Origin: Nakazawaea peltata
Taxonomy: Eukaryota > Ascomycota > Pichiomycetes > Alaninales > Pachysolenaceae
Reading direction: 5' to 3'
NCBI GenBank assembly: GCA_001599355.1
Contig: BCGQ01000002.1
Location: 1,067,554 to 1,131,553, forward strand
Length of the DNA: 64,000 nt
Part shown: piece after piece, positions 24,818 through 57,855 of the stretch
Layout: the number at the start of each line of letters is the position of its first letter
Position numbering within the stretch: the stretch's first letter is position 1
The notes under the pieces: generated by a model
What the model saw: only the letters and a program-made list of their open reading frames with translations
Database searches by the model: none
What the model was told of the DNA's origin: nothing
Program-made: the position numbers and the translations under genes

Positions 24818-25526
24818 CGTTAGGACGAAAGGCGCAGTGCTTGCTACTCAATTCGGCTTTAATTGATGGATTGATTGCTCAATTGATGTGGAATGGAAGA
24901 GTGGGTTTAAATGTTTTTGAGGATAATTTTGGGGGGGGCGGCGGCTTTCTGAGATTGATTTGCTGGCAATTGGGGTGCGCACGACCAAATTGGGGCACGG
25001 ATCAAGGAGGAGGGGGGCATGACAATTGGGGAAATTTACACGACTAAATTGATATATCAGGCAGTTATGTTATAAAGAGAGGGATGATAGTTGGAATTGG
25101 ATGATCTGTTTTGACTCGGTAGGTTGGGTCTGGTAGGTTGTAGTTGGTAGGCTGTAGCTGGTAGGCTGTATCTGGTAGGCTGTATCTGGTAGGCTGTCTC
25201 TGGTATGTTGTCTCTGTTAAATAGCCCCTGCTAAATTGTCTGTTCTCTTTCTTTATTGTTTTTCCCCAGCTTACACTTCCGTTTCTGCCCTATCACCCTG
25301 CCCCGATCACTATTTCCTGCCCGATAAAGCTCAATTTTTCATTTTTCAGTCTCAGAACATCATAACACCAATTTCCATACTCTGACCATTTCAACATCAT
25401 AACACCAACAAACACCCCCAATACATATAGACCATTTCATAGTTTACTGATCATTGTCGGCTGATCGCTTGTCTCTCCTCTCTACTGCCACTCCCCCTAC
25501 AATCATCAATAATCTAATTATCTATT
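24818..25526. other. Region upstream of CHC1, with 14-bp minisatellite
   Basis: No gene. It holds the CHC1 promoter on the minus strand. Contents: an 8-G run near 24931, two RCACGACY sites (24979-24986, 25038-25045), a 14-bp tandem repeat (25118-25215), and TGCCC repeats at 25280-25320. Confidence 0.55.
25118..25215 (+). repeat. 14-bp minisatellite, 7 units
   Basis: Seven head-to-tail units with consensus GGTAGGCTGTATCT start at 25118, 25132, 25146, 25160, 25174, 25188 and 25202. Units 4 and 5 are identical; the outer ones carry one to four changes, as when an array grows from its middle. Confidence 0.9.
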
Positions 25527-27338
25527 TCATTTACGTAATTGCTTCTCAATAAGACTCAAAATACCAACTCCATTGGCATATTCAGTCCATTGATCCTTCG
25601 TTTCAAACTCCTCTACATTATCTTCGTAGCTGAACGACTTTTCCAACCATTCATCATAGCCCAATCCTAACCCCTTCTTTTCACAAAGATACGACCAAAT
25701 AGATTTGTAGCATCCTCCTAAAGCACAGGCGTCATTCAATTCAACTTTATAATCACCTTGAGTAGCCCCCAAAATCGAAGCGAATTTCTGGATAATTTGA
25801 AGATTCTTGGCTGCTCCTCCTACATAGTAAACTTTATTAGGATGAGATGTCAACAGTTGTGGAGATTGCTTGATTCCGTCACTCTCAATGGTTCCATACT
25901 CTTTCAAAATATCCAAAGCCTTTTGTTGCTCATCACTGAAAGTGTTTGCATCGGAGTCGGATCCTTCTTCTGCACTAACCATCATTGGACCAGCTCTCAA
26001 TCTACAACTTAACAGTTGACTCTCTACAATACTGACTACATCCTGTTCAACAGGCCATGAATCTACCTCTTTCAACTGGTGGTTGGAATACTCGAATCTC
26101 CTGGTCTGCAGTAAACAGTTAGGAACGATTTCTCCCTTGTCGAAATAGACACCCAATTTAGATCCACCATTCAAAGGCTTCAGCAGAGAAAGAATCTCTC
26201 CAAATTGAGTCCAATCCGACCCATTACCCCCATTCAACTTCTTATTGATCTCAACACGAGGCAATGACCCATTACAGTAACAAATCATACCCATATAAGC
26301 ATCTGGGATCGTTGGATGTTTGAAAAGATGGTAATTAGGAGAAGAAACATACTTATCGGTAACCAATAAAACAGTAGTGGAAGTTCCCAAAGAAATCAAA
26401 ATATCATTTGTAGCTAATGGTAACAGCAAAATAGTTGCAAGATTATCACCAGTGAAAGGATAGATTTGACAGTCTGGAGGGAATCCATAACGTTCACAGA
26501 AGTACGGAGAGATTGCCGAAATCAGCTTGTAACCTACTTTGTCTACAGAAGGGCCGATTTTCAGTTTCAACAGATCTACAGCCAGTTTAGTTTTCAGAGG
26601 GTCAGATTCTCCGTCAATCTTTGGATGAGCACTTGCCAGTACCAGGAGCAAATTATCATCCCATTTGGAGGCACCAATATCGTACAAATTCATACCACAA
26701 GCATCGGATTCTTCGATATTGGTGATAAAACCAGTGAACAAAGAAGCCAAGAATGAAGAAACCAATGAAATACGAAGAGTAGCAGCGTAGATCTCAGGTT
26801 TCTTCTTAGATATTTTACGAATTTGAGAACCGGTAAAACGGTAGTGCAGACGAGAACCAGTAACTTTACTTAATCCGAATTCATCCCCAGCAGCTTCCTC
26901 AAAGAGAGGTAATTCTTCTCCGGTGGAATGATCTTGCCAATTTGGAGAATGGTTAGTAGCAAAACAATCCAAATCAAGTTGTTCTCCTAAAGACTGATCA
27001 GCTCTTAAAGAAGCCAACCTGTCAGGCAGCAGCTGGGACCAAAAAATTGACCCATGTTGCTGACAAGAACCACTCATTCCCCGCACTCTGTTGAATGGAA
27101 ATCCATCCAGTTTCATATTTTGTAAAATCAAATCTACCGATTCGATCCACATTTCGACCGGAGAATAGATTTCTCCTGTCTCATCGTTGCTTCTGACACC
27201 ATTACGAATGTCGTATTTCTCCAGAAACTCGGCATCGAAATCAACACGGTAAGTCTTGAAATGTTTGAGCTTGTCATCAGTGACGATGATCTTGATCAGC
27301 TGGGTGGACAAATCGAAACCCAAAAATAAGTCGGACAT
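25527..27338 (-). CDS. XKS1: Xylulokinase
   Basis: 603 aa, about the length of S. cerevisiae Xks1 (600). It phosphorylates D-xylulose to xylulose-5-phosphate, feeding the pentose phosphate pathway. FGGY-kinase motifs are FLGFDLSTQLIKIIV at residues 5-19, GMSGSCQQHGSIFW, NWQDHSTG, the phosphate loop SLGTSTTVLLVTD, and VGGAAKNLQIIQKFASILG. Its ATG lies 6 bp after the stop codon of the SPC1-like gene on the same strand and in the same frame, so its promoter must lie inside that gene or the two share a transcript. Xylitol dehydrogenase lies just upstream on the same strand. Confidence 0.94.
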   Translation of the reverse strand: MSDLFLGFDLSTQLIKIIVTDDKLKHFKTYRVDFDAEFLEKYDIRNGVRSNDETGEIYSPVEMWIESVDLILQNMKLDGFPFNRVRGMSGSCQQHGSIFWSQLLPDRLASLRADQSLGEQLDLDCFATNHSPNWQDHSTGEELPLFEEAAGDEFGLSKVTGSRLHYRFTGSQIRKISKKKPEIYAATLRISLVSSFLASLFTGFITNIEESDACGMNLYDIGASKWDDNLLLVLASAHPKIDGESDPLKTKLAVDLLKLKIGPSVDKVGYKLISAISPYFCERYGFPPDCQIYPFTGDNLATILLLPLATNDILISLGTSTTVLLVTDKYVSSPNYHLFKHPTIPDAYMGMICYCNGSLPRVEINKKLNGGNGSDWTQFGEILSLLKPLNGGSKLGVYFDKGEIVPNCLLQTRRFEYSNHQLKEVDSWPVEQDVVSIVESQLLSCRLRAGPMMVSAEEGSDSDANTFSDEQQKALDILKEYGTIESDGIKQSPQLLTSHPNKVYYVGGAAKNLQIIQKFASILGATQGDYKVELNDACALGGCYKSIWSYLCEKKGLGLGYDEWLEKSFSYEDNVEEFETKDQWTEYANGVGILSLIEKQLRK

Positions 27339-27344
27339 TGTTAA

Positions 27345-27560
27345 TTAATTCTTGTTTTTCGAACCGTATGGAGGAACAATTACACCCAAAGCGACTAAAT
27401 ATCCAATTCCAAATACCAAATACAGCACACTGTAATCTTGTAAAGCGTAAGATAAAATACACAGGACGGTGGCACTGATTGCAAGCAAGGATTTAGTTTT
27501 GACGGCGGCAGATTTTTGGGATTCAAAATCGATTGCTCCGAATTCAAGAACAGAGTTCAT
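27345..27560 (-). CDS. SPC1: Signal peptidase complex subunit 1-like (SPCS1), 71 aa
   Basis: Two hydrophobic segments (about residues 23-41 and 45-63) are joined by a short QDYS turn. The N-terminus reads GAIDFESQK and the second helix ends VIVPPY. This matches the SPC1/SPCS1 family pattern (IDF-x-SQ or MD-x-GQK; Q-Q between helices; PPWP or PAYP after helix 2). The family is a non-catalytic part of the ER signal peptidase, with both termini cytosolic. It is shorter than S. cerevisiae Spc1 (94 aa), mostly at the C-terminus. Its TAA at 27347-27345 is followed by only TTA ACA before the xylulokinase ATG, in frame. Confidence 0.7.
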   Translation of the reverse strand: MNSVLEFGAIDFESQKSAAVKTKSLLAISATVLCILSYALQDYSVLYLVFGIGYLVALGVIVPPYGSKNKN

Positions 27561-28226
27561 TTCTATTCAATTTCTCCGTATAGATTAAGCGGTCAAGAGC
27601 CTATTTATATCCCCTCTCATTTCTTGACCCGCTTCATAGTGAGCTTATTTTTTTGTGTGATTCGACGGCTACGTGGCGTCCTGAAAGGAGAGGTGTTGCT
27701 TACCGCGCGCTTGCGCGCTTGCGCTCGCGCGGGCTGTTTTTGATGGTGTGCGGATCCGGATAAGAGAGGTGGACGGCATCGGAGTTTCCCCGGATTTGTG
27801 TTGGTTTGGGTTCGGGGGTCGGAACGAAGGTGGTGCGAGGGGTGCAGGCGGCGTTGGGTGATGCGGATGGCATGCAGGGATGGGTCACGTTATTATGGGG
27901 GGTTGACGGGTGGATTGATGGGTGGAGGCTTATCTTAAGTTAGGGGTTGGCTGGCTGGGTTGGGCTGGGGTCAAGTCAAGGGACTGACTGATGATCAGTA
28001 GAACAATCCTGTTATTTGTGAGGGGAATAATTAGGATCTGGGAGTAGTTTAGTTAGTGATATGCACGGTTGACGAGTCGGTTGGATCCGGTCTTGGCCAA
28101 TCAAAGCTGCTCATCTTGACGCATAATGCACCCCACAATTTCACATATCAAAAATCGGGTCGTGGTATTTCCGATCTTTCTTAACCTACTCATCTACTAA
28201 CAATTCCACACTATCAATTATATTAT
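27561..28226. promoter_or_regulatory. Region between SPC1-like and xylitol dehydrogenase
   Basis: No gene. It has to hold the promoter of the SPC1-like gene and, perhaps, of xylulokinase. A GC-rich stretch made of overlapping GCGCTTGCGC units lies at 27706-27735, and the next 250 bp are G-rich. The shared hexamer-rich phrase ACCGCGCGCTTG also occurs near 56248. Confidence 0.45.
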
Positions 28227-29339
28227 CTATTTAAATTTCTTAGTAGCTCTGTTATCAGCTGGTCCATCAACCATTACCTTAATGGCCTTACCACTCTTCA
28301 ACAGTTCGTACAGCTCTTCAATTTCTTCAAACTTGTATCTATGAGTAATGAACTTAGAAACATCAACTCTGCCACTAGAAATCAAAGTGACAGCAGTACT
28401 GTAACAACCATCATCGTATCTACTAGAACCGGTCAAGGTGATTTCCTTCTCGGTGATGAAGAAAATAGGGAAGTCGTTCATGGTTTCGGCTCCCATACCA
28501 ACTTGACAGTACTTACCCTTGTTGTCCAAGAGACGGATCAGTTGGTTGATACATGGGGAAATACCGGTACAGTCGAAACTGACGGTCAGAGGCTTTCCTC
28601 CAAATGCAGCGATTTGCTTGGCTCTGATCTCCTCGTAACTCAAACCTCTGTCACCAGATCCATTGTAGATATGGGTAGCGACACCAAGAGTGTCCTTGGC
28701 AAAGTCCAACTTGTCTTGGACCAAGTCACACAACAAGATCTCGGTAGCTCCGTACAGCTTGGCGACACTGGCGACGACCAAACCGATAGTACCAGCACCA
28801 ATGATGGCGACTCTGTCACCGAATTTGGTACCTACTTGGTTGTTGGCATGAACACCAACACTTAATGGCTCACACATGGCACCTTGCTCCAAAGACATGT
28901 TGTCTGGCAACTTGTAAAGGAAATCTTCTGGCAAGACGTAGTATCTCAGCAAAGTACCATCGATTGGAGGAGTCAGCAGGAACTTCATATCTGGGTCCAA
29001 GTTATAGTAACCGGATCTGAATTCCTTGGAGTAACGAGAAGGAACACCTGGCTCCATTGCAACGTTGTCACCAACTTTCAAAGTGGTGACCAGAGAACCA
29101 ACTTCAACGACGGTACCAGCACTCTCGTGACCCAAAACCATAGGAGAGGTAACCTTGAAGGAACCACATTTGAACTCATCGTAGTACAAGACATCAGAAT
29201 GGCAACATCCAGTTTTCTTGACCTCGACCTTAACGCCGTGAGGCTCATCAATGGTTGGGATTGGTCTGTCCTCGAACAGGACCTTTTGAATACCGGTCAA
29301 GACAATCGATGGGTTGTCACAGGTGGCGATATCGATCAT
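28227..29339 (-). CDS. XYL2: Xylitol/sorbitol dehydrogenase, zinc MDR family
   Basis: 370 aa, a polyol dehydrogenase that oxidises xylitol to xylulose with NAD+. Catalytic zinc ligands are in KKTGCCHSDVLYY and LGHESAGTVVEVG, with the Glu of GHE. The coenzyme fold is VAIIGAGTIGLVVASVAKLYG ending in LLCDL; the Asp there favours NAD+ over NADP+. The second, structural zinc site seems lost: the lobe reads SRYSKEFRSGYYNLDPD, with no Cys. Yeast XYL2 proteins vary there. D-arabinitol or sorbitol are alternative substrates. A TATA box lies 87 bp upstream. It is on the same strand as xylulokinase. Confidence 0.86.
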   Translation of the reverse strand: MIDIATCDNPSIVLTGIQKVLFEDRPIPTIDEPHGVKVEVKKTGCCHSDVLYYDEFKCGSFKVTSPMVLGHESAGTVVEVGSLVTTLKVGDNVAMEPGVPSRYSKEFRSGYYNLDPDMKFLLTPPIDGTLLRYYVLPEDFLYKLPDNMSLEQGAMCEPLSVGVHANNQVGTKFGDRVAIIGAGTIGLVVASVAKLYGATEILLCDLVQDKLDFAKDTLGVATHIYNGSGDRGLSYEEIRAKQIAAFGGKPLTVSFDCTGISPCINQLIRLLDNKGKYCQVGMGAETMNDFPIFFITEKEITLTGSSRYDDGCYSTAVTLISSGRVDVSKFITHRYKFEEIEELYELLKSGKAIKVMVDGPADNRATKKFK

Positions 29340-30489: not shown

Positions 30490-32256
30490 ATGTCTTACAG
30501 TAAGGGACATTCGTTCAAACAAAGCACGCAACAGCGTCGTGCCTCGGTGGTAATTAGTGGCTCATTGGGTCGTGGAGGAATATTCACCCCGGCCGATTTC
30601 ATTGATACTCCTTCAAAGAAGCCTGTTTTACTGGATGAAGAATCACTTTTAGGTGAAGAAGTTCTGTTGATGCATGAAAATGGTGTGGCAATTGCTGGAT
30701 ATGATAGTGTGCTGATCCCCTCTGCTGGAATCCCTAAAAAATCGGTCTCTGGACCTACCGGGAACTCCTTGTCACCTTCAGCCACACCTGCCGACGGAGC
30801 TCACAATCTTTTAGCCGCTACACAGTCTCGGGAAGAGATCTCTCTGGCATGGGAAGACCTGATACACAACGACAAGATAACCCAGGCTTCTGTATGGCTT
30901 GAACTCCGTACTTTGATCGCCTCTTCCATCCCATTGATCATCACATTTGTATTTGAAAATTCTCTTAGTGTTCTGAGTATTTTCAGTGTTGGTCATTTGG
31001 GATCTGTCGAGTTACTGTCGGTGTCTTTGGGTGCTATGACACTGAATATCACACTGTACTCCATCATTCAAGGATTGGCCACGTCTCTTGATACTTTATG
31101 TGCTCAACTGTACGGTCTGAACAACCACTCGTTAGTTGGTCTTCATTTCCAGAAGGTCACCGTACTGATCTTTGCCGTATTTGTTCCAATTTTCATTTTC
31201 TATTGGATTGGGGGCCATTGGTTATTCACCAAGATGATCCCTGACCCAGTCAGTGCATTGCTTCTGAGTAACTACTTGAAAGTGGTGTCTTTAGGTGTTC
31301 CGGGCTACATTCTTTTCGAGACAGGTAAGCGGTTTTTGCAATCGCAGGGAATTTTCCATGCCTCTACTTACATTTTATGTATTTGTGCTCCATTAAATCT
31401 GTTAATGAACTATTTGTTCGTCTGGAACAAATATATCGGTATCGGGTACCTTGGACTGCCAATCCTGGTCCTGATCAACTACTGGTTAATGCTGCTTGGT
31501 CTTCTCGTTTATACTTTATACACTAAAAGTGACGTCAACCCTATGAAATGTTGGGTCCCTATCAATTGGAAGTTCATCACCAGTGACTGGGCCTCAATGT
31601 TCCGTTTACTGTTACCGGGAGTCATCATGATCGAGCTGGAGTTCTTGCTGTTCGAGCTGTTGACTTTGTTGTCCTCCTATTTGGGTACCGATGTCTTGCT
31701 GGCTCAAAGTATCGTCACCACTATGCTGTCTTTGAGTTACCAAGTGCCATTCCTGATCTCGATTCTGTGTGGTACCAGAGTTGCTAATCTCCTCGGTGCC
31801 TCTTTACTGAATTTACTGAAAGTCCATTGTATGGTTGCATTGGTGTTTGCTTTCTTCATTTCTTTGCTTAGTTTCTCGCTGCTTTACTTTGGAGATGACC
31901 AGATCGCCAAGTTCTTCACCAATGACGAGACCACTATCAAAATTGTTTCTAATGTGATTCCATTTGTCGCTGTGATCCAGATTTTTGACGCCTTGAACGC
32001 TGTCAGTGCAGGTTTGTTGAGAGGTCAAGGTTTACAGAAGATCGGAGGTATCGTCAACTTGGTCAGTTACTATTTGGTGGGTCTTCCAGTGCTGATTATT
32101 CTGACGTTCAAGTTGGATTATGGATTGAAGGGATTGTGGCTTGGAGCAGGAGTCCTGTTATTAATCATTGGAGTTGTGCAGAGTTACTATGTTATTTACT
32201 CTGACTACGACGAGTTAGTCCGCGATCTGGAGAGACGTAATGCTTTAGAAGAGTAG
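30490..32256 (+). CDS. MATE-family transporter 1, ERC1-like
   Basis: 588 aa from ATG 30490; an in-frame TTG 66 bp upstream is rejected. About 150 N-terminal residues are hydrophilic, then about 12 TM helices of the MATE fold follow, in two halves. Landmarks are SSIPLIITFVFENSLSVLSI at helix 1, GLATSLDTLCAQLYG, the RFLQSQG loop, APLNLLMNYLF, and GLLRGQGLQKIGGIVNLVSYY in the second half. S. cerevisiae Erc1 and YDR338C have the same form; Erc1 confers ethionine resistance. The substrate here is unknown. The next gene downstream is a paralog in the same direction, 237 bp on, so this is a tandem duplication. Confidence 0.9.
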   Translation: MSYSKGHSFKQSTQQRRASVVISGSLGRGGIFTPADFIDTPSKKPVLLDEESLLGEEVLLMHENGVAIAGYDSVLIPSAGIPKKSVSGPTGNSLSPSATPADGAHNLLAATQSREEISLAWEDLIHNDKITQASVWLELRTLIASSIPLIITFVFENSLSVLSIFSVGHLGSVELLSVSLGAMTLNITLYSIIQGLATSLDTLCAQLYGLNNHSLVGLHFQKVTVLIFAVFVPIFIFYWIGGHWLFTKMIPDPVSALLLSNYLKVVSLGVPGYILFETGKRFLQSQGIFHASTYILCICAPLNLLMNYLFVWNKYIGIGYLGLPILVLINYWLMLLGLLVYTLYTKSDVNPMKCWVPINWKFITSDWASMFRLLLPGVIMIELEFLLFELLTLLSSYLGTDVLLAQSIVTTMLSLSYQVPFLISILCGTRVANLLGASLLNLLKVHCMVALVFAFFISLLSFSLLYFGDDQIAKFFTNDETTIKIVSNVIPFVAVIQIFDALNAVSAGLLRGQGLQKIGGIVNLVSYYLVGLPVLIILTFKLDYGLKGLWLGAGVLLLIIGVVQSYYVIYSDYDELVRDLERRNALEE

Positions 32257-32493: not shown

Positions 32494-34275
32494 ATGGGAC
32501 ATGATAATACCGATAATATATGGATAAGGAACAAGAATTCTCGAGAAATCCCCGGGGAGCTGCAAGAAAATGCTAGAGCCACACTGTCACTGATTGGTGT
32601 CACTAGTAGTTCTTTGGGCAGAGCAGAGATGTTGGGAAGTAGTTTCAACGGGAGACATTCTGGACACCATGATATTGATCGTGATTTGGTCGATTATGAT
32701 GGAGAAGGTGATGTTGAGGTACAAAAATATTTAGAAGAGCAACTGCATTTGAAGCAAACCAAGCAGGGCAAACACAAGAATGACAGCAGTGAACAGTTGG
32801 AGTTACGTGGACATAGTAGTGAACAGCAAGGAGAATATGGTGCAATAATAGACGAAGATGAGGTTTCAGATTCAGTTGAACTTCAAAATGAAGTAGGAAC
32901 CTCGAAAGTGTCGTTTTGGAATGAGTTTGTATCTATATCTGCAAATTCTGCCCCATTAATTGTCACATTCTTTCTTCAGAATTCTCTCAATGTCGCTTCT
33001 ATTATGAGTATAGGACATTTGGGGGCCACAGAGTTGGCTGGTATCACATTAGGATCAATGACACTGAATGTAACTAGTTTTAGTGTGGTATCGGGAATTT
33101 CCACCTGTCTTGATACTCTTTGTGCCCAACTGTATGGGGCAGGAAAGTACCATTTAATTTCTTTGTATTTTCAACGATGCAATGCTTTGTTATTAATGAT
33201 TATTTTACCCATAATTATCGGTTATTATCTGGTGGGTTATCGATTACTATATAGTATTACTGGAGATGAGCAGACTCTGCATTATCTGCTGCAATATTTG
33301 AAGATCACCGCTGTGGGATTACCAGGGTACTGTTTATTCGAGACTGGAAAAAGATATCTTCAAGCTCAAGGTGTATTCCACCTGTCGACATACGTTTTAT
33401 TTGTCTGTGCTCCGGTAAATGCTTTCTTAAATTATTATTTAGTATGGGGTCCTGGTTCTCCTCTTGGATATCTGGGTCTGCCTGTCGCTGTACTGGTGAC
33501 TTACTGGTTAATGCCATTAGGTCTTTTCTTATATGTCTGGAAATTCGATACCAGTTTACAAAAGTGTTGGAGATGGTATCCTATCGTTAAGATATTCCAA
33601 AATTGGTCAACTTTGATTCATTTACTGCTCCCGTCTTTGGTTATGATTGAACTGGAATTTATCCTATTCGAATGTATGACAATATTTGCTTCTCGTTTGG
33701 GGGTAATAAGTTTACTGCTGCAAAGTTGTGTCGCCAGCATTTCTCTGTTGGTATGGCAATTGATTTTCGCCATTTCGGTGCTGCTGTCGACCAGAGTACT
33801 GAATTATTTAGGACTGGGAAGACTCGAGGCTAGTAAAATGTGTTGTAGTATTTCTTATTGGTTTGCGATTTTGGTCTCCATTATGAACTGTTCACTTCTT
33901 ATCATCTATGCGAGACCAATCAGTTTTATATTCACTTCTGACCCCCAAATTGCTGAGATGGTTGTAGATGTGATGCCAACTTTGCTGCTTTTCCAATTTG
34001 TAGATTCCTTAAACAGTGTAGGAGCCGGTTGTCTTCGTGGTCAAGGTCTTCAAAAGATCGGAGGAATCATCAATTTAATCAGCTACTACATTGTTGGATT
34101 ACCTTTCAGTTACTATCTTACATTTGATAGAGAATTCGGTATCAAAGGATTATGGCTCGGTACTTCCTTCCTGTTGTTGATCAACAGTATAGTGGAGATC
34201 GTCTACGTTTTCTTCAGTGACTGGAATGTCTTGTATGAACAGCTGAAGGCCCGTAGCAGTGATGACCTTGCATAA
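32494..34275 (+). CDS. MATE-family transporter 2, tandem paralog
   Basis: 593 aa with a longer acidic, Gln/His/Glu-rich N-terminus of about 145 residues, then the same 12-helix MATE layout: APLIVTFFLQNSLNVASIM, GISTCLDTLCAQLYGAG, RYLQAQGVFHLSTYV, APVNAFLNYYL and GCLRGQGLQKIGGIINLISYY. Conserved blocks agree closely with the upstream paralog, while the N-termini share nothing obvious, so the regulatory ends seem to have diverged. It probably exports small cationic or amphipathic compounds in exchange for H+ at the plasma membrane or vacuole; this is family inference. Confidence 0.9.
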   Translation: MGHDNTDNIWIRNKNSREIPGELQENARATLSLIGVTSSSLGRAEMLGSSFNGRHSGHHDIDRDLVDYDGEGDVEVQKYLEEQLHLKQTKQGKHKNDSSEQLELRGHSSEQQGEYGAIIDEDEVSDSVELQNEVGTSKVSFWNEFVSISANSAPLIVTFFLQNSLNVASIMSIGHLGATELAGITLGSMTLNVTSFSVVSGISTCLDTLCAQLYGAGKYHLISLYFQRCNALLLMIILPIIIGYYLVGYRLLYSITGDEQTLHYLLQYLKITAVGLPGYCLFETGKRYLQAQGVFHLSTYVLFVCAPVNAFLNYYLVWGPGSPLGYLGLPVAVLVTYWLMPLGLFLYVWKFDTSLQKCWRWYPIVKIFQNWSTLIHLLLPSLVMIELEFILFECMTIFASRLGVISLLLQSCVASISLLVWQLIFAISVLLSTRVLNYLGLGRLEASKMCCSISYWFAILVSIMNCSLLIIYARPISFIFTSDPQIAEMVVDVMPTLLLFQFVDSLNSVGAGCLRGQGLQKIGGIINLISYYIVGLPFSYYLTFDREFGIKGLWLGTSFLLLINSIVEIVYVFFSDWNVLYEQLKARSSDDLA

Positions 34276-37400: not shown

Positions 37401-38492
37401 ATGCAATTATCTAGATCTATTTCAATCTCAATTGCTTTGGCTCTGAATGCCATGGCCGCTTATGTTCCAAGTGAGCCATGGTCCACTTTGACCCCAGATT
37501 CTCCATACCCAAGTGGTGCCATCACTGATTACCCATCTACTTTTGGTATTGCCATTTCTCAAATTTCCACCTCTGCATCTGCCGAGGCCACTGGAAATGC
37601 TAAGAGAGCTTTGCCACAATTGGTCAAGAAGGATGTCACCCAAATCGGTGATGGTCAAGTCCAAGCTACTACTGCTACTGAGAAGACCACCGAGGAGGCT
37701 GCTACTCAAATTGGTGATGGTCAAGTTCAAGCCACTACTTCCACTGCCAAGAAGACCACCGAAGCCGCTGCTACCCAGATCGGTGATGGTCAAGTTCAAG
37801 CTACTACTGCTACCGCTAAGACCACAGAGGCCGCTGTTACTCAAATCGGTGACGGTCANGTNCAAGCTACTACTGCTACCGCTAAGACCACCGAGGCTGC
37901 TGTTTCCCAAATTGGCGATGGTCAAGTTCAAGCTACTACTGCTACCGCTAAGACCACCGAGGCTGCTGTTTCCCAAATTGGCGATGGTCAAGTTCAAGCT
38001 ACCACCAAGACCACTGCCGGTGCTGTTTCTCAAATTGGCGATGGTCAAATCCAAGCCACCACTAAGACCGCTACTGGTGCTTCTCAAATTGGCGATGGTC
38101 AAGTCCAAGCTACTGATGCTGCCAGTTCCGAGGATGATGGTCAAATCACTAACGTTGAAGGTGATGACACCTCCGACCCAGTTACCCTGGTCTCTTGTTC
38201 TTCTGACTCAACTTTGCTGATGACCTTGAACAACTCCGTTTTGACCGACTCTTCCGGTAGAATTGGTTCCATCGTCGCTAACCACCAATTCCAATTCGAC
38301 GGTCCTCCACCACAAGCCGGTGCCATCTACGCTGCTGGTTGGTCTATCACCGAAGATGGTTTGTTGGCTCTTGGTAACAACACTCACTTCTACGAATGTT
38401 TGTCTGGTACCTTCTACAACTTGTACGATGAGGACATCGGAAGTGAATGTTATGAGGTTGTCTTCTCTGTTGTCGATTTGGTTGACTGTTAA
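37401..38492 (+). CDS. PIR cell-wall protein (internal repeats, 4-Cys tail)
   Basis: 363 aa. A signal peptide of about 20 residues ends near LNAMAAYV. A Kex2-type KR site (NAKR before ALPQLVKK) separates a propeptide from the repeats. Eight copies of the PIR repeat [11 protein letters not shown] follow, most with an ATAKTTEAA spacer. In such repeats a Gln forms an alkali-labile ester to beta-1,3-glucan, anchoring the protein in the wall. The C-terminal domain has the four spaced Cys of PIR proteins ([21 protein letters not shown] and the final VDC). Two N bases at 37859 and 37862 make the GQV of the fourth repeat uncertain, probably because the near-identical repeats collapsed or vary. S. cerevisiae PIR1/HSP150 are the closest types. 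Confidence 0.94.
37644..38118 (+). repeat. Internal PIR coding repeats, 8 units
   Basis: Near-identical 57-69-bp units encode [11 protein letters not shown] plus spacer. They are in frame throughout. Repeats 4 to 6 are the most alike, so unit number is the likeliest thing to vary between strains or assemblies. Confidence 0.85.
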
Positions 38493-42122: not shown

Positions 42123-43629
42123 ATGAGATACCAAATCAAATTTATTACTCTCCTTCTCTGTTTCTGGACTCTGTGCCATTGTTTAAATCCTATTTCTATC
42201 CGCGGAAGACATTTCGTCGATTCCTTGACAAACCAATTGGTAAGTCCAAATAAGCTAAACTGACCTTAGTGAATGTAACTAACTCCGTGACTTTTCCAGT
42301 TTCTCATAAAAGGTGTAGATTATCAACCAGGGGGCTCCTCTGGCGTTACTTTGTCTAGAGACCCTCTTTCAGATCCCAATCTGTGTGCCAGGGATATTCC
42401 CTTATTTCAGGAGTTAGGAATCAACACGATCCGTGTGTATTCAGTTAACCCTGAGTTGAATCATGACAAGTGTATGTCTATGTTACTGGAGCTGGGTATT
42501 TATATCGTTCTTGATGTCAATTCTCCCTTGGAAAACTCATATTTGAATCGGTACGAGCCATGGACAACTTACAATGAGTTTTACTTGGAACATATTTTCA
42601 AAGTAGTTGAACAATTTGGTCACTACCCAAACACTTTACTGTTCTTTGCTGGAAATGAGGTTATCAATGATCACAGATCAGCTAAAGTTAGTTCAATTTA
42701 TATGAAGCTGGTAGTACGTGATTTGAAAACTTATATCAAGAAGAATTTACCTAGAAAGATTCCCGTTGGGTACTCTGCAGCTGATGACCTTCATTATCGA
42801 ACTTCATTGGCGAAATACATGGAGTGCAGGGATAAATCTGATAATGATCTGGACATAGACTTTTATGGAGTCAATTCATATCAATGGTGTGGAAATCAAG
42901 ATATTCATTCTAGCGGCTATGATGCTCTTCTTCGAGATTATAAAGATTTCACCAAACCAATATTCTTATCAGAGTTTGGGTGCAATGAAGTAACGCCGAG
43001 GGTTTTCCAAGAAGTCGAAGCTATATATTCACCTGAAATGGTGAAGGTCTTCAGCGGAGGACTTGTTTATGAATTCACAGAGGAGCCTAATCATTATGGG
43101 TTGGTGTCTGTGGATTCAGAAGGAAATGTAAATATTTTACCAGATTTTGACCTGTTGAGGGCTAAGTTAGAAGCAACGAAGAATTATATCCCGGTAGCTA
43201 CTTTGCATGAGTCCAAGAAAACTCAGCAGCTGCCTTTTTGTGCTGATCAATATGAGAATTTAGATATATCTCATCATCTACCAACCACATTGGCTCTGAA
43301 CTTAATCCAACATGGTGTACCAGTTAGACGTGGAAAGCTTTTAAGTCTCTCAGACTCTGAAATGCAAACTACCTTCAAAGTAGCTGATTCACAAGGAAAC
43401 ATCAAACAGCTAAAGATCACAAAAATCCAGTCTGAGTCTGGTGCCGAATCTTCTGGAGATGTTCTTCCTTCCTTCTACAATAATGGTAAGTGAATTTCTA
43501 ATCCTGGACTTATCTTAACATTCTACTAACATAACAGGTGTCAGCTCCAGATTTAAAACAGATCTCGCAATGGGAGGAAATTTGATTATGATTATGTTAA
43601 CATTATATATAATATCACGTCTCTGGTAG
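42123..43629 (+). CDS. GH72 beta-1,3-glucanosyltransferase, GPI-anchored (3 exons)
   Basis: Predicted 464 aa from exons 42123-42239, 42300-43485 and 43538-43629. Intron 1 has GTAAGT and an AACTAAC branch site; intron 2 has GTAAGT and TACTAAC (43524-43530). Exon 1 encodes a signal peptide (KFITLLLCFWTLCHC). Splicing then yields FLIKGVDYQPGGSS, the GH72 entry motif. Catalytic Glu159 (FAGNEVIND) and Glu264 (FLSEFGCNE) are both present, so it should be active. There is no C-terminal X8/CBM43 cysteine module. Exon 3 encodes only the GPI signal (hydrophobic LIMIMLTLYII, ending RLW). It remodels wall beta-glucan. Convergent with an aldo-keto reductase, 6 bp between stops. Confidence 0.88.
43486..43537 (+). 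other. GH72 last intron (52 bp)
   Basis: Donor GTAAGT at 43486-43491, branch TACTAAC at 43524-43530, acceptor ACAG. The intron starts GTAAGTGA and read through from exon 2 gives GGT AAG TGA, a stop at once. Confidence 0.85.
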
Positions 43630-43635
43630 TATCAA

Positions 43636-44583
43636 TCATTTGTAGCCGAAAACATCGACTCCCCAGAAATCCTTTTCAATTGGATCGTATACTCTGAGTT
43701 CTCCTAATTCTTTATGAAGGTTATTGATCGATTGAGCATCCTCATCAGATAAGGTGATAGTCTTCAAGTTGGAAATGATTCTCGATTCAGAGATAGATTT
43801 CACAATAACAACGAGGCCCCTCCACACTTGCCATGAGACTACTATTGTGGCCGGAGAAACGTCATACTTCTTACCAAGAGTTTGAATTAGTTCATTTTTC
43901 AAGATCGGAGCACCTGTGGATCCCAAAGGAGAAAATGACTCCAAAACAATCCCATTCTTAGTGCAATACTCGAATAACTCATGTTGGGGCAATTGAGGGT
44001 GATTCTCAACTTGGTTGATCAGTGGTTTAATTTCCAGAACAGCCAACAACTTCTCCAACATAGAGATAGGAACGTTCGAAACACCTATGGCCTTAATCTT
44101 GTTGGTTTCTTTGTAGATTTTTTCCAATGTCCTCCATGTAGCAATCAAGTCTCCCACTAAGTCGTCATTTACAACATCAGCTACAGTCTCACCTTTTTCA
44201 TTGACTTTGGTAGGGTTCTTTTCATCATTGCCATTTGGATTCAAAGGAACAGGCCAGTGGATAAGGTATAAATTAACATAATCGAAGCCGAAATTTTTCA
44301 AAGACCGGTCCAACAGCATTTCGACGCGGGAGTGATCAGTACACCATAATTTGCTAGTGACAAAGAACTCTTCTCTAGGAATACCAGAATCAAGAATGGC
44401 CCTGCCAACACTTGACTCACTACCGTACTTCCAAGCACTATCAAAATGCCTATAACCAGCCTTAATTGCGGTCGAGGTAAGATCGTAGAAGTCATCCTTC
44501 TCTGGGTGCCATGTCCCAAATCCGATAACTGGGATTTCAGTTCCATTGTTCAACTTGGTTTTTTCAGTATTGTTAGTAGCCAT
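43636..44583 (-). CDS. Aldo-keto reductase, GCY1/YPR1-like, copy 1
   Basis: 315 aa from ATG 44583; an in-frame TTG 15 bp upstream is rejected. It is an NADPH aldo-keto reductase with the tetrad Asp48, Tyr53, Lys78 (VTSKLW) and His109 (IHWPVP). Closest family type is yeast Gcy1/Ypr1 (glycerol dehydrogenase or 2-methylbutyraldehyde reductase), though xylose reductases have the same fold. The cofactor motif near the C-terminus reads VVIVKSISESRI, where the paralog has VVLPKSVTELRI: the Pro is changed, the Lys kept. It is the downstream member of a tandem pair with the gene at 45060-46004. Confidence 0.88.
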   Translation of the reverse strand: MATNNTEKTKLNNGTEIPVIGFGTWHPEKDDFYDLTSTAIKAGYRHFDSAWKYGSESSVGRAILDSGIPREEFFVTSKLWCTDHSRVEMLLDRSLKNFGFDYVNLYLIHWPVPLNPNGNDEKNPTKVNEKGETVADVVNDDLVGDLIATWRTLEKIYKETNKIKAIGVSNVPISMLEKLLAVLEIKPLINQVENHPQLPQHELFEYCTKNGIVLESFSPLGSTGAPILKNELIQTLGKKYDVSPATIVVSWQVWRGLVVIVKSISESRIISNLKTITLSDEDAQSINNLHKELGELRVYDPIEKDFWGVDVFGYK

Positions 44584-45059: not shown

Positions 45060-46004
45060 CTATTTCTGGGTACCGAAAAGATCGGTCTTCCAGAATCCTG
45101 CAGGATCACAAACTCTGAATTCACCAACCTCATTGTAAAGCTCGCTGATCAGCTTGACATCCTCATCAGCTAAAGTTACAGTCTTCAAGTTGGAGATAAT
45201 TCTCAGCTCGGTGACGGACTTTGGCAAGACAACGACACCTCTCAGTACTTGCCAAGAAATGGCAATGGTAGCTGGGGAAACATCGTATTTCTCAGCAAGA
45301 GCTTGGATCTTCTCGTTCTTCAAGACTGGAGCACCAGTGGATCCCAATGGGGAGTAAGCCTCGATGACGATGTCGTTCTTAGAACAGAACTCGTACAATT
45401 CTGGTTGAGGCAATTGTGGGTGGTTCTCAACTTGGTTGACAACTGGCTTGATCTCCAGAACAGCCAACAACTTCTCCAACATCAGGGCTGGGACATTAGA
45501 AACACCAATAGCCTTAAGCTTGTTGGTCTCCTTGTAGATCTTCTCCAATGACTTCCAAGTCTTGATCAAGTCTTCGGCGTAGTCAACATCCAAGATATCA
45601 ACAACCTTCTCACCATCGGCACCAACCTTGGTTGGACTCTTGTCATCGTTACCTTCTGGGTTGAATGGAACTGGCCAGTGGATCAAGTATAAGTCAAGGT
45701 ATTCCAAGCCCAAGTTCTTCAACGAACGCTCCAACAGCAGCTCAGCACGAGGGTGATCAGTGTTCCACAATTTGGTGGTGATGAACAATTCCTCTCTTGG
45801 AACACCAGAGTCAGCAATAGCCTTACCAACGGTTGGTTCATTACCGTAAATCCAAGCAGTGTCAATGTGCTTGTAACCAGCCTTAATAGCGCTTAAGACA
45901 CCATTGTAAGCGTCCTCTGGGGATGATTGCCAGGTACCCAAGCCGACAATTGGAATTTCGGTTCCGTTATTCAATTTGACCTTTTGAGTGTTGATAGTAG
46001 CCAT
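45060..46004 (-). CDS. Aldo-keto reductase, GCY1/YPR1-like, copy 2
   Basis: 314 aa from ATG 46004; an in-frame TTG at 46040 is rejected. Tetrad Asp48, Tyr53, Lys78 and His109; NADPH loop VVLPKSVTELRIISN. It shares most of its sequence with copy 1 (KLNNGTEIPI, GVSNVP, LEIKP, NQVENHPQLPQ and similar), so this is a tandem duplication. Its codons are more biased than copy 1 (GGT, TTG, CCA, AAG), which suggests this is the strongly expressed copy. Confidence 0.9.
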   Translation of the reverse strand: MATINTQKVKLNNGTEIPIVGLGTWQSSPEDAYNGVLSAIKAGYKHIDTAWIYGNEPTVGKAIADSGVPREELFITTKLWNTDHPRAELLLERSLKNLGLEYLDLYLIHWPVPFNPEGNDDKSPTKVGADGEKVVDILDVDYAEDLIKTWKSLEKIYKETNKLKAIGVSNVPALMLEKLLAVLEIKPVVNQVENHPQLPQPELYEFCSKNDIVIEAYSPLGSTGAPVLKNEKIQALAEKYDVSPATIAISWQVLRGVVVLPKSVTELRIISNLKTVTLADEDVKLISELYNEVGEFRVCDPAGFWKTDLFGTQK

Positions 46005-56391: not shown

Positions 56392-57855
56392 ATGCTTTTG
56401 AACAGATTTGTCCTTGCCGCCGTTGCAGCTCAGTTACTGCAACTGATGGTCCCTATCGAGGTTTACTCCAACAGATTCATCAAACCCGCCGTTTCCTCTG
56501 ACGATGACGACGAGGTCTTTTGGATTAAGGGGGTTGACTACCAACCTGGAGGTTCTTCCCTGTATGAAGAGGGAGGTGACTCTGATGTGCTCAGTGATGC
56601 TTCAGTTTGTTACAGAGACGTCTACCTGTTGCAAAACTTGGGCGTTAACACTATTCGTGTTTACACAGTTAACCCAGACCTTAACCACGATGAATGTATG
56701 TCGATCTTGAATGATGCCGGTATCTACGTCATCTTGGATTTGGGTTCTTCTACTTATTCCATTTACAGAGAAGATCCTCAAGACTCTTACAACTACTCAA
56801 CTTTGTACCGTTTCTTCAGTGTTATTGATCTGTTTAAGAACTACCCTAATGTTTTGGGTTTCTTTGTTGGTAATGAGGTTATTAACGATGAAGAATCTGC
56901 TGCCGACACCCCTCGTTATATCCGTGCTTTCCAAAGAGATGTCAAAAACTATATCAAGAACAATGCTAAGCGTCAAATTCCAGTCGGTTATTCTCTGGCC
57001 GATGTCACCGAATTGCGTGCTCTGACTTGGGAATATTTCCAATGTAACATCGATGGAGATGAAGATGATATGTCCAAATCTGATTTCTTCGGTTTGAATT
57101 CCTATGAATGGTGTTCAGGTATCAGTGATTGGTCTTCTTCTGGTTACTCTGAAGTCAATTCTACTTTCTACGAGTCTACTATCCCAGTATTCTTCTCCGA
57201 ATACGGTTGTAACACCGACTCTCCAAGAACTTTCACCGAGGTTTCTAAAGGTTTATACGATGGTTTACTCGACTCTCTTAGTGGTGGTTTGGTATACGAG
57301 TATTCCGAAGAGACTAGTGACTATGGTTTGGTCAACATCGATGATGACTGTTCAATCACTTACGAAAAGGATTACGACAACTTATTGAAACAATTCAACA
57401 AGTTAGACTTACCAACTTGGACCGAAGACGATATCACCAAGCACTCCATTGTCAAGTGTAATCTGGACGATATTACTGACTTGTACAGTGGCTTTGGTGC
57501 TAACTTCACCTTGCCAGATGTTCCAGATGGAGTTGACACCATGATCTTGTACGGTGTCAACAACTCCAACATTGGAGAAATCATCGATGTCGATGCCAAG
57601 CTGTCCAACTGTAGTATTTATTACTCTAACAAGACCGAAATTGACGACCCAACTGTTGTTTTCTCTGAGGAGAACGAAATCAACTCTGTTGACGGTACCG
57701 CTTCCTCATTCTCCTCCTCCCCGAAGACCTCCTCGAAGAAATCTTCATCTACTCTGTCTTCTACTTCATCTGATGCCGGAGTTCTCGCTCACTCTTCTAA
57801 CTTCTTCACCGCCGGTCTCCTGGGATTGCTGACTATTTTGATCAGTTTAATCTAA
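56392..57855 (+). CDS. GH72 beta-1,3-glucanosyltransferase, GPI-anchored
   Basis: 487 aa, single exon. A signal peptide is followed by VFWIKGVDYQPGGSS at about residue 42. Catalytic Glu162 (FVGNEVIND) and Glu270 (FFSEYGCN) are both present. After about residue 370 comes a Cys-poor region, then a Ser/Thr/Lys linker (SSFSSSPKTSSKKSSS) and a GPI signal (LLGLLTILISLI). It lacks a full X8/CBM43 module, so it is of the Gas3/Gas4/Gas5 form. Codons are more biased than the spliced GH72 gene at 42123, so this is probably the main enzyme. It elongates and rearranges beta-1,3-glucan at the cell surface. Confidence 0.9.
   Translation: MLLNRFVLAAVAAQLLQLMVPIEVYSNRFIKPAVSSDDDDEVFWIKGVDYQPGGSSLYEEGGDSDVLSDASVCYRDVYLLQNLGVNTIRVYTVNPDLNHDECMSILNDAGIYVILDLGSSTYSIYREDPQDSYNYSTLYRFFSVIDLFKNYPNVLGFFVGNEVINDEESAADTPRYIRAFQRDVKNYIKNNAKRQIPVGYSLADVTELRALTWEYFQCNIDGDEDDMSKSDFFGLNSYEWCSGISDWSSSGYSEVNSTFYESTIPVFFSEYGCNTDSPRTFTEVSKGLYDGLLDSLSGGLVYEYSEETSDYGLVNIDDDCSITYEKDYDNLLKQFNKLDLPTWTEDDITKHSIVKCNLDDITDLYSGFGANFTLPDVPDGVDTMILYGVNNSNIGEIIDVDAKLSNCSIYYSNKTEIDDPTVVFSEENEINSVDGTASSFSSSPKTSSKKSSSTLSSTSSDAGVLAHSSNFFTAGLLGLLTILISLI

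Follow-up and report, generated by a model that had tools for sequence, protein, structure and literature searches.

Within the window that we analysed, a 64,000-nucleotide stretch of the Nakazawaea peltata genome, a xylulokinase-like gene (XKS1) starts 6 nt after the stop codon of a small gene for signal peptidase complex subunit 1 (SPC1), on the same strand and in the same frame. The best reading of this arrangement, which we hold with somewhat better than even confidence, is that one TATA promoter serves both genes, with RNA starts straddling the SPC1 ATG. The two genes perhaps share one mRNA.

Both ORFs lie on the minus strand. The SPC1-like ORF (27345-27560) comprises 71 codons and a TAA stop codon (27347-27345), followed by the spacer TTAACA (27344-27339) and by the ATG of XKS1 (27338-27336), whose ORF of 603 aa (25527-27338) ends with a TGA (25529-25527). 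Read in the standard code from 27560, the minus strand gives MNSVLEFGAIDFESQKSAAVKTKSLLAISATV... up to the TAA, and translation across the junction reads ...GSKNKN*LTMSDLF..., with one stop ahead of the end of XKS1. The original prediction that stop, spacer and start follow each other in a common frame is exact to the base in both sequence and translation. The shared frame in itself is a 1-in-3 event and says little alone.

To establish the identity of both ORFs, we compared them with domain families and known structures. SPC1 matches the Pfam family SPC12 (E 2.4e-12; 47.2 bits in the standard code and 52.9 bits with CTG read as alanine, for a curated cut-off of 23.6), and the match spans residues 10-70, that is, positions 1-61 of the 71 of the profile. 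Hydropathy in windows of 19 residues reveals a strong segment at about residues 43-64 (up to 2.27) and a second, weaker one at about residues 18-42 (up to 1.55), so that the two transmembrane helices announced earlier agree only partly with the hydropathy. A search of PDB sequences with SPC1 returned no SPC chain, and the two antibody chains found at E 0.51 correspond to chance. XKS1 carries the Pfam domains FGGY_N and FGGY_C, and its best PDB match is human xylulose kinase 4bc2 (E 4.2e-82 in the standard code, 3.9e-86 with CTG as alanine). This alignment starts at residue 6 of XKS1, which fixes the start of the gene. XKS1 is hence a predicted xylulokinase of the eukaryotic XYLB/XKS1 type, with D-xylulose phosphorylation as its putative activity.

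The 6-nt gap is real, since homology anchors the junction on either side. The 27 ORFs retained as gene models include 14 pairs of same-strand neighbours, and no other pair stands so close: the remaining 13 distances range from 237 to 2,912 nt. This count rests on mechanical ORFs and leaves out those below 150 aa other than SPC1, so that small genes that were not modelled might reduce several of these distances. Three ORFs of 102 to 123 aa that we scanned had no Pfam match. The spacing is more than chance, as both genes are conserved coding genes and the gap separating them is the smallest in the window. The earlier claim that such tandem spacing is rare in yeast therefore stands within the window (6 nt against the next value of 237, among 14 gaps), and goes beyond it where yeasts at large are concerned. 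That the junction results from an error of assembly or sequencing is conceivable in a window that contains 3 N bases and whose base quality is imperfect, but it is most improbable: both ORFs are intact, the family matches end and begin at the junction, and there is no N in 25300-28400.

The gap of 6 nt and the similarity of XKS1 to its relatives from residue 6 onwards confirm that there is no space for a leader of its own, so that XKS1 transcription must begin within or upstream of SPC1. The possibilities initially envisaged, a promoter inside SPC1 or one transcript for both genes, turned out to be incomplete. A third option is a single core promoter with starts straddling the SPC1 ATG, and it is favoured by the position of the TATA box. 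Indeed, TATAAATA (27602-27609, minus strand) is the sole TATAWAWR between the stop codon of the next upstream gene, XYL2, and the XKS1 ATG, and we propose it as the core promoter of SPC1 and XKS1. Beginning at 27609, it lies 49 nt ahead of the SPC1 ATG and 271 nt ahead of the XKS1 ATG. The shorter motif TATAWA also occurs only once in 27339-28226, again at 27609, and neither motif is therefore present within SPC1.

A TATAWAWR located 40-110 nt before the ATG on the same strand was found for 6 of 25 ORFs (SPC1 included, XKS1 omitted and an ORF truncated at the edge of the window unused), versus 2.2% of random positions. This enrichment suggests that the placement of the TATA box at 27609 is probably functional in this genome. 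The other five boxes lie 58 to 104 nt from their ATG, and the 49 nt of SPC1 are the shortest of the six distances, which speaks against the shared-promoter reading. XKS1 could instead be driven by a TATA-less promoter within the SPC1 coding sequence, making the locus two independent, overlapping transcription units. A consensus TATA box is found in only about 15% of S. cerevisiae promoters according to PMC3217976, and 19 of the 25 ORFs in our own count had no TATAWAWR at 40-110 nt. Such a promoter would nevertheless have to fit into 216 coding bases devoid of any TATAWA, and a TATA box is already available 49 nt upstream of SPC1; we consider it quite unlikely.

The interval between XYL2 and SPC1 (27561-28226, minus strand; 666 bp) is presumably the regulatory region shared by both genes. 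Its G+C content is 49%, compared with 38% for SPC1, 41% for XKS1 and 40.8% for the window. A short GCGC-rich run is found within it at about 27700-27735.

In S. cerevisiae, RNA starts are reported to lie 40-120 nt past the TATA box; for S. pombe the reported distance is about 31 nt, with minor starts at 30-70 nt (PMC11514446). From these fungal distances, the expected RNA-start stretch for SPC1 and XKS1, 31 to 120 nt past the TATA box (27489-27578, minus strand), would straddle the SPC1 ATG. Applied to 27609, the S. cerevisiae range places 9 of 81 positions ahead of the SPC1 ATG, and the 30-70 nt range of S. pombe places 19 of 41 there, these being counts of positions and not of RNA. If starts in this lineage lay about 25-31 nt past the TATA box, they would all precede the SPC1 ATG, which would speak against the straddling arrangement.

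In the mechanism that we propose, the SPC1 ORF would lie within the 5′ leader region of XKS1, with a single TATA promoter for both, and RNA polymerase II would initiate across a stretch on both sides of the SPC1 ATG. On mRNAs begun before this ATG, both ORFs would be present and the leader would measure at most some 20 nt, allowing SPC1 to be made, and part of the ribosomes on these two-ORF mRNAs would pass the cap-near SPC1 AUG and start at the XKS1 AUG. mRNAs begun past the SPC1 ATG would have SPC1 cut off and would encode only XKS1, behind some 150-220 nt of leader free of AUG. Over the whole expected stretch of starts, the leader ahead of XKS1 would measure 151-240 nt. We infer the start sites, the short leader, the leaky scanning and the balance of both kinds of mRNA.

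Between the start codons of SPC1 and XKS1, none of the frames contains another ATG. Hence, a ribosome that skips the SPC1 AUG, or one on an RNA begun inside SPC1, reaches the XKS1 AUG next. None of the 25 other ORFs has its first 222 nt free of ATG, and only 137 of 11,698 overlapping coding windows are ATG-free. We rejected this feature as a sign of selection, given that recoding SPC1 with the codon usage of the window also yielded no ATG in 29% of 20,000 trials with CTG as alanine, and in 20% with the standard code. The absence of internal ATGs is largely explained by a protein without internal methionine. We also scored start contexts with a small leave-one-out matrix built from 26 ORFs, in which XKS1 (2.77) ranks 7th and SPC1 (1.68) 11th, both in the upper half. 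The direction of this difference suits leaky scanning and its size is no proof of it, the SPC1 context being middling, not poor.

These features bear as well on a stricter bicistron, in which nearly all RNAs would begin ahead of SPC1 and span the two ORFs, with leaky scanning as the sole route to XKS1. Starts at 25-31 nt past the TATA box would leave SPC1 with a leader of 18-24 nt, short enough to favour skipping, and a short 5′ UTR with a cap-near start is tied to leaky scanning in PMC11892635. There is no AUG ahead of XKS1 besides that of SPC1, and in S. cerevisiae about half of the ribosomes are described as bypassing the uORF YOR302W in the leader of CPA1 (PMC8573964). However, the start context of SPC1 is not weak, the 40-120 nt range of S. 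cerevisiae (PMC11514446) argues against starts confined to the upstream side, and S. cerevisiae is reported to leave the second gene of an artificial polycistron untranslated before selection (PMC11952965). This version is accordingly unlikely, although not negligible.

XKS1 could also be translated through termination and reinitiation, by ribosomes that have finished SPC1 and resume at the XKS1 AUG, 6 nt further on. The 80S-type reinitiation described in selected S. cerevisiae works with spacers of 0-1 nt and weakens as they lengthen from 10 to 50 nt (PMC11952965); a spacer of 6 nt would suit it. The same source reports that second cistrons are silent in unselected S. cerevisiae. As for reinitiation of the classical 40S type, it requires that the uORF be short and the spacer sufficiently long, for which PMC5972666 gives no exact limit; the 71 codons of SPC1 and the 6 nt that follow them fit neither. 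Furthermore, the RNA structure of 27300-27580 is no more stable than that of shuffled sequences (z 0.04, with 96 of 200 shuffles folding equally well or better), so that we rejected it as a reinitiation or recoding signal; this counts against the pathway. We regard reinitiation as improbable.

Read-through of the stop codon would produce an SPC1-xylulokinase fusion anchored in the ER, and according to the original prediction this would place xylulokinase on the ER membrane. The frames are in register and separated by one TAA, but a shared frame arises by chance in one case out of three, and XKS1 aligns to its human relative from residue 6. A T after the TAA is not known to make this stop codon leaky. 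When the TAA (residue 72) was translated as Q, the SPC12 match went from residues 10-70 (52.9 bits) to residues 10-73 (53.6 bits), a gain of 3 residues and 0.7 bit that did not enter XKS1. As the family match ends at the TAA and the similarity of XKS1 begins at residue 6, the fusion is unsupported and we give it hardly any credence, though read-through may occur at a low level. Splicing across the junction was discarded too, as the minus strand of 27300-27620 contains neither a 5′ splice motif (GTATGT, GTAAGT, GTACGT, GTATG, GTAAG) nor a branch-point motif (TACTAAC, CTAAC, CTAAT, GCTAA).

Some of the scores above depend on how CTG is translated. In the alignment of the clathrin heavy chain, whose gene lies 709 nt downstream of XKS1, we checked by eye 13 of the 40 CTG codons, and none of the 13 stood opposite leucine. 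For this reason we scored the proteins of the window with CTG as leucine, serine or alanine. Summed Pfam bits over 13 domains of seven proteins were 2315.7 for leucine, 2394.7 for serine and 2428.6 for alanine, and over 11 domains of ten further proteins they were 2101.7 for serine and 2160.4 for alanine. Alanine thus outscored serine in 19 of the 24 domains, tied in one (TPP_enzyme_N) and scored lower in four (p450, TPP_enzyme_M, the clathrin propeller and one aldo-keto reductase), for a sum of +92.6 bits in its favour. Left out of the 24 were two overlapping families, in both of which leucine scored highest (TPR_Vps41: leucine 41.5, serine 39.0, alanine 39.0; AA_permease_2: leucine 91.2, serine 85.4, alanine 87.0), and four weak matches (Clathrin-link, TPR_COPA_B, Glu_dehyd_C and ADH_zinc_N_2), in which alanine outscored serine or was the only reading to give a match.

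Because alanine is a forgiving residue, we ran a control on one protein, a nucleoporin, measuring costs over two domains with codon counts that cover the whole gene. Changing its 21 TCC serines to alanine cost 0.9 bit, its 14 GCC alanines to serine 8.2 bits, and its 35 CTG alanines to serine 17.8 bits, which indicates that CTG behaves as a true alanine codon. These scores suggest that the yeast in the window probably reads CTG as alanine, as does the CUG-Ala clade (Alaninales). Nakazawaea belongs, in the NCBI taxonomy, to the family Pachysolenaceae of the order Alaninales, and translation of CUG as alanine has been described in one clade (PMC5951914). ARAGORN found no tRNA gene in the 64-kb window. 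If CTG is alanine, standard-code translations of the window are wrong at every CTG, of which there are 344 in 25 ORFs.

The gene next upstream of SPC1, on the same strand (28227-29339), encodes a XYL2-like xylitol dehydrogenase. Its best PDB match is the xylitol dehydrogenase 7y9p (E 1.4e-96), which outscores the ketose reductase and sorbitol dehydrogenases in the same search. XYL2 and XKS1 act in consecutive steps, on xylitol and then on xylulose, so that the signal peptidase gene stands between two genes of the xylose pathway. For Pichia (Scheffersomyces) stipitis, PMC2784038 reports that xylose raises the expression of XYL1, XYL2 and XYL3 and that glucose represses it; its passages on these genes contain nothing on SPC1.

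Elsewhere in the window, genes for aldo-keto reductases (43636-44583 and 45060-46004) and for MatE transporters (30490-32256 and 32494-34275, with a gap of 237 nt) form tandem pairs. For a GH72 glucanosyltransferase ORF at 42474-43493, the first 85 of the 314 profile positions are unmatched, the 5′ part being missing from this ORF; it may be a truncated copy, or reflect an intron or a frame error. Another GH72 ORF, at 56392-57855, matches positions 4-313. A cell-wall-like ORF (37401-38492) with repeats that we take to be PIR-like contains two adjacent unreadable codons inside the repeats.

Comparison with known systems shows partial likenesses. YOR302W-CPA1 and the transcripts of Wu and Cox (2021) resemble our locus in that the leader of a metabolic gene contains an ORF, and the second ORF of YOR302W-CPA1 is described as being reached by leaky scanning (PMC8573964), as we propose for SPC1-XKS1. 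Among the bicistronic transcripts of that study, the highly expressed ones are reported to have shorter spacers of higher G+C content (PMC8573964). The upstream ORF of YOR302W-CPA1 is, however, a regulatory uORF and its bicistron is known from transcripts, whereas SPC1 encodes a conserved component of a housekeeping enzyme complex and SPC1-XKS1 is a candidate read from the sequence.

Green algal bicistrons (Chlamydomonas, Auxenochlorella) are characterized in PMC11892635 by a short ORF1, a long ORF2, a short gap, a short 5′ UTR, a weak ORF1 context and a scarcity of AUGs ahead of ORF2. Long reads and reporters demonstrate them there, and the reporters support leaky scanning. The size of ORF1 and the gap are comparable here: the medians given in that source for A. 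protothecoides are 291 nt for ORF1 and 40 nt for the gap, against 216 nt (stop included) and 6 nt at our locus. In contrast with the algal cases, the SPC1 context is not clearly weak, starts may fall inside ORF1, and the arrangement is known from its anatomy.

Polycistronic transcripts of Agaricomycetes likewise involve fungal ORFs on the same strand, there present on one RNA, but their mean inter-ORF distance is 364 nt and their ORFs are similar in size, as reported in PMC4503453, where the authors also describe Neurospora crassa as having no polycistronic transcripts. Finally, the 80S-mediated reinitiation of selected S. cerevisiae resembles our case in favouring very short spacers. It differs in that it concerns artificial constructs in selected strains and is inactive in ordinary cells, according to PMC11952965.

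We also searched for earlier reports and for relatives of the junction. Among the matches listed from the open-licence PMC literature, we found no report of this SPC1-XKS1 junction. In the same literature, the sole match for SPC1 together with XKS1 was SPC110, not SPC1; the sole match for SPC1 or the signal peptidase complex with bicistronic concerned a viral protein; and xylulokinase was absent among the matches listed on bicistrons or uORFs in yeast. Searches with single-protein queries, which reach close relatives only, confirmed none of the 3 XKS1 and 41 SPC1 pattern matches in viral contigs and none of the 7 XKS1 matches in genome contigs, neither set being from yeast.

A 2025 paper states that functional bicistrons are unreported in yeast (PMC11952965), and PMC8573964 counts five bicistronic transcripts with verified function in S. 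cerevisiae, mostly regulatory uORFs or merged proteins and not pairs of distinct conserved enzymes. The SPC1-XKS1 locus, with an anatomy that is demonstrated and unusual in the window, appears to be a good candidate for a natural yeast bicistron. It is a concrete one, with two separate conserved proteins encoded 6 nt apart, beside a xylitol dehydrogenase gene, in a lineage whose genetic code is probably altered. In practical terms, taking XKS1 alone would leave its promoter behind, beyond another gene. More tentatively, and with less than even confidence, the locus may be a natural functional bicistron, in which a single promoter serves both genes while start-site choice and leaky scanning would set the ratio of SPC1 to XKS1, perhaps according to the carbon source.
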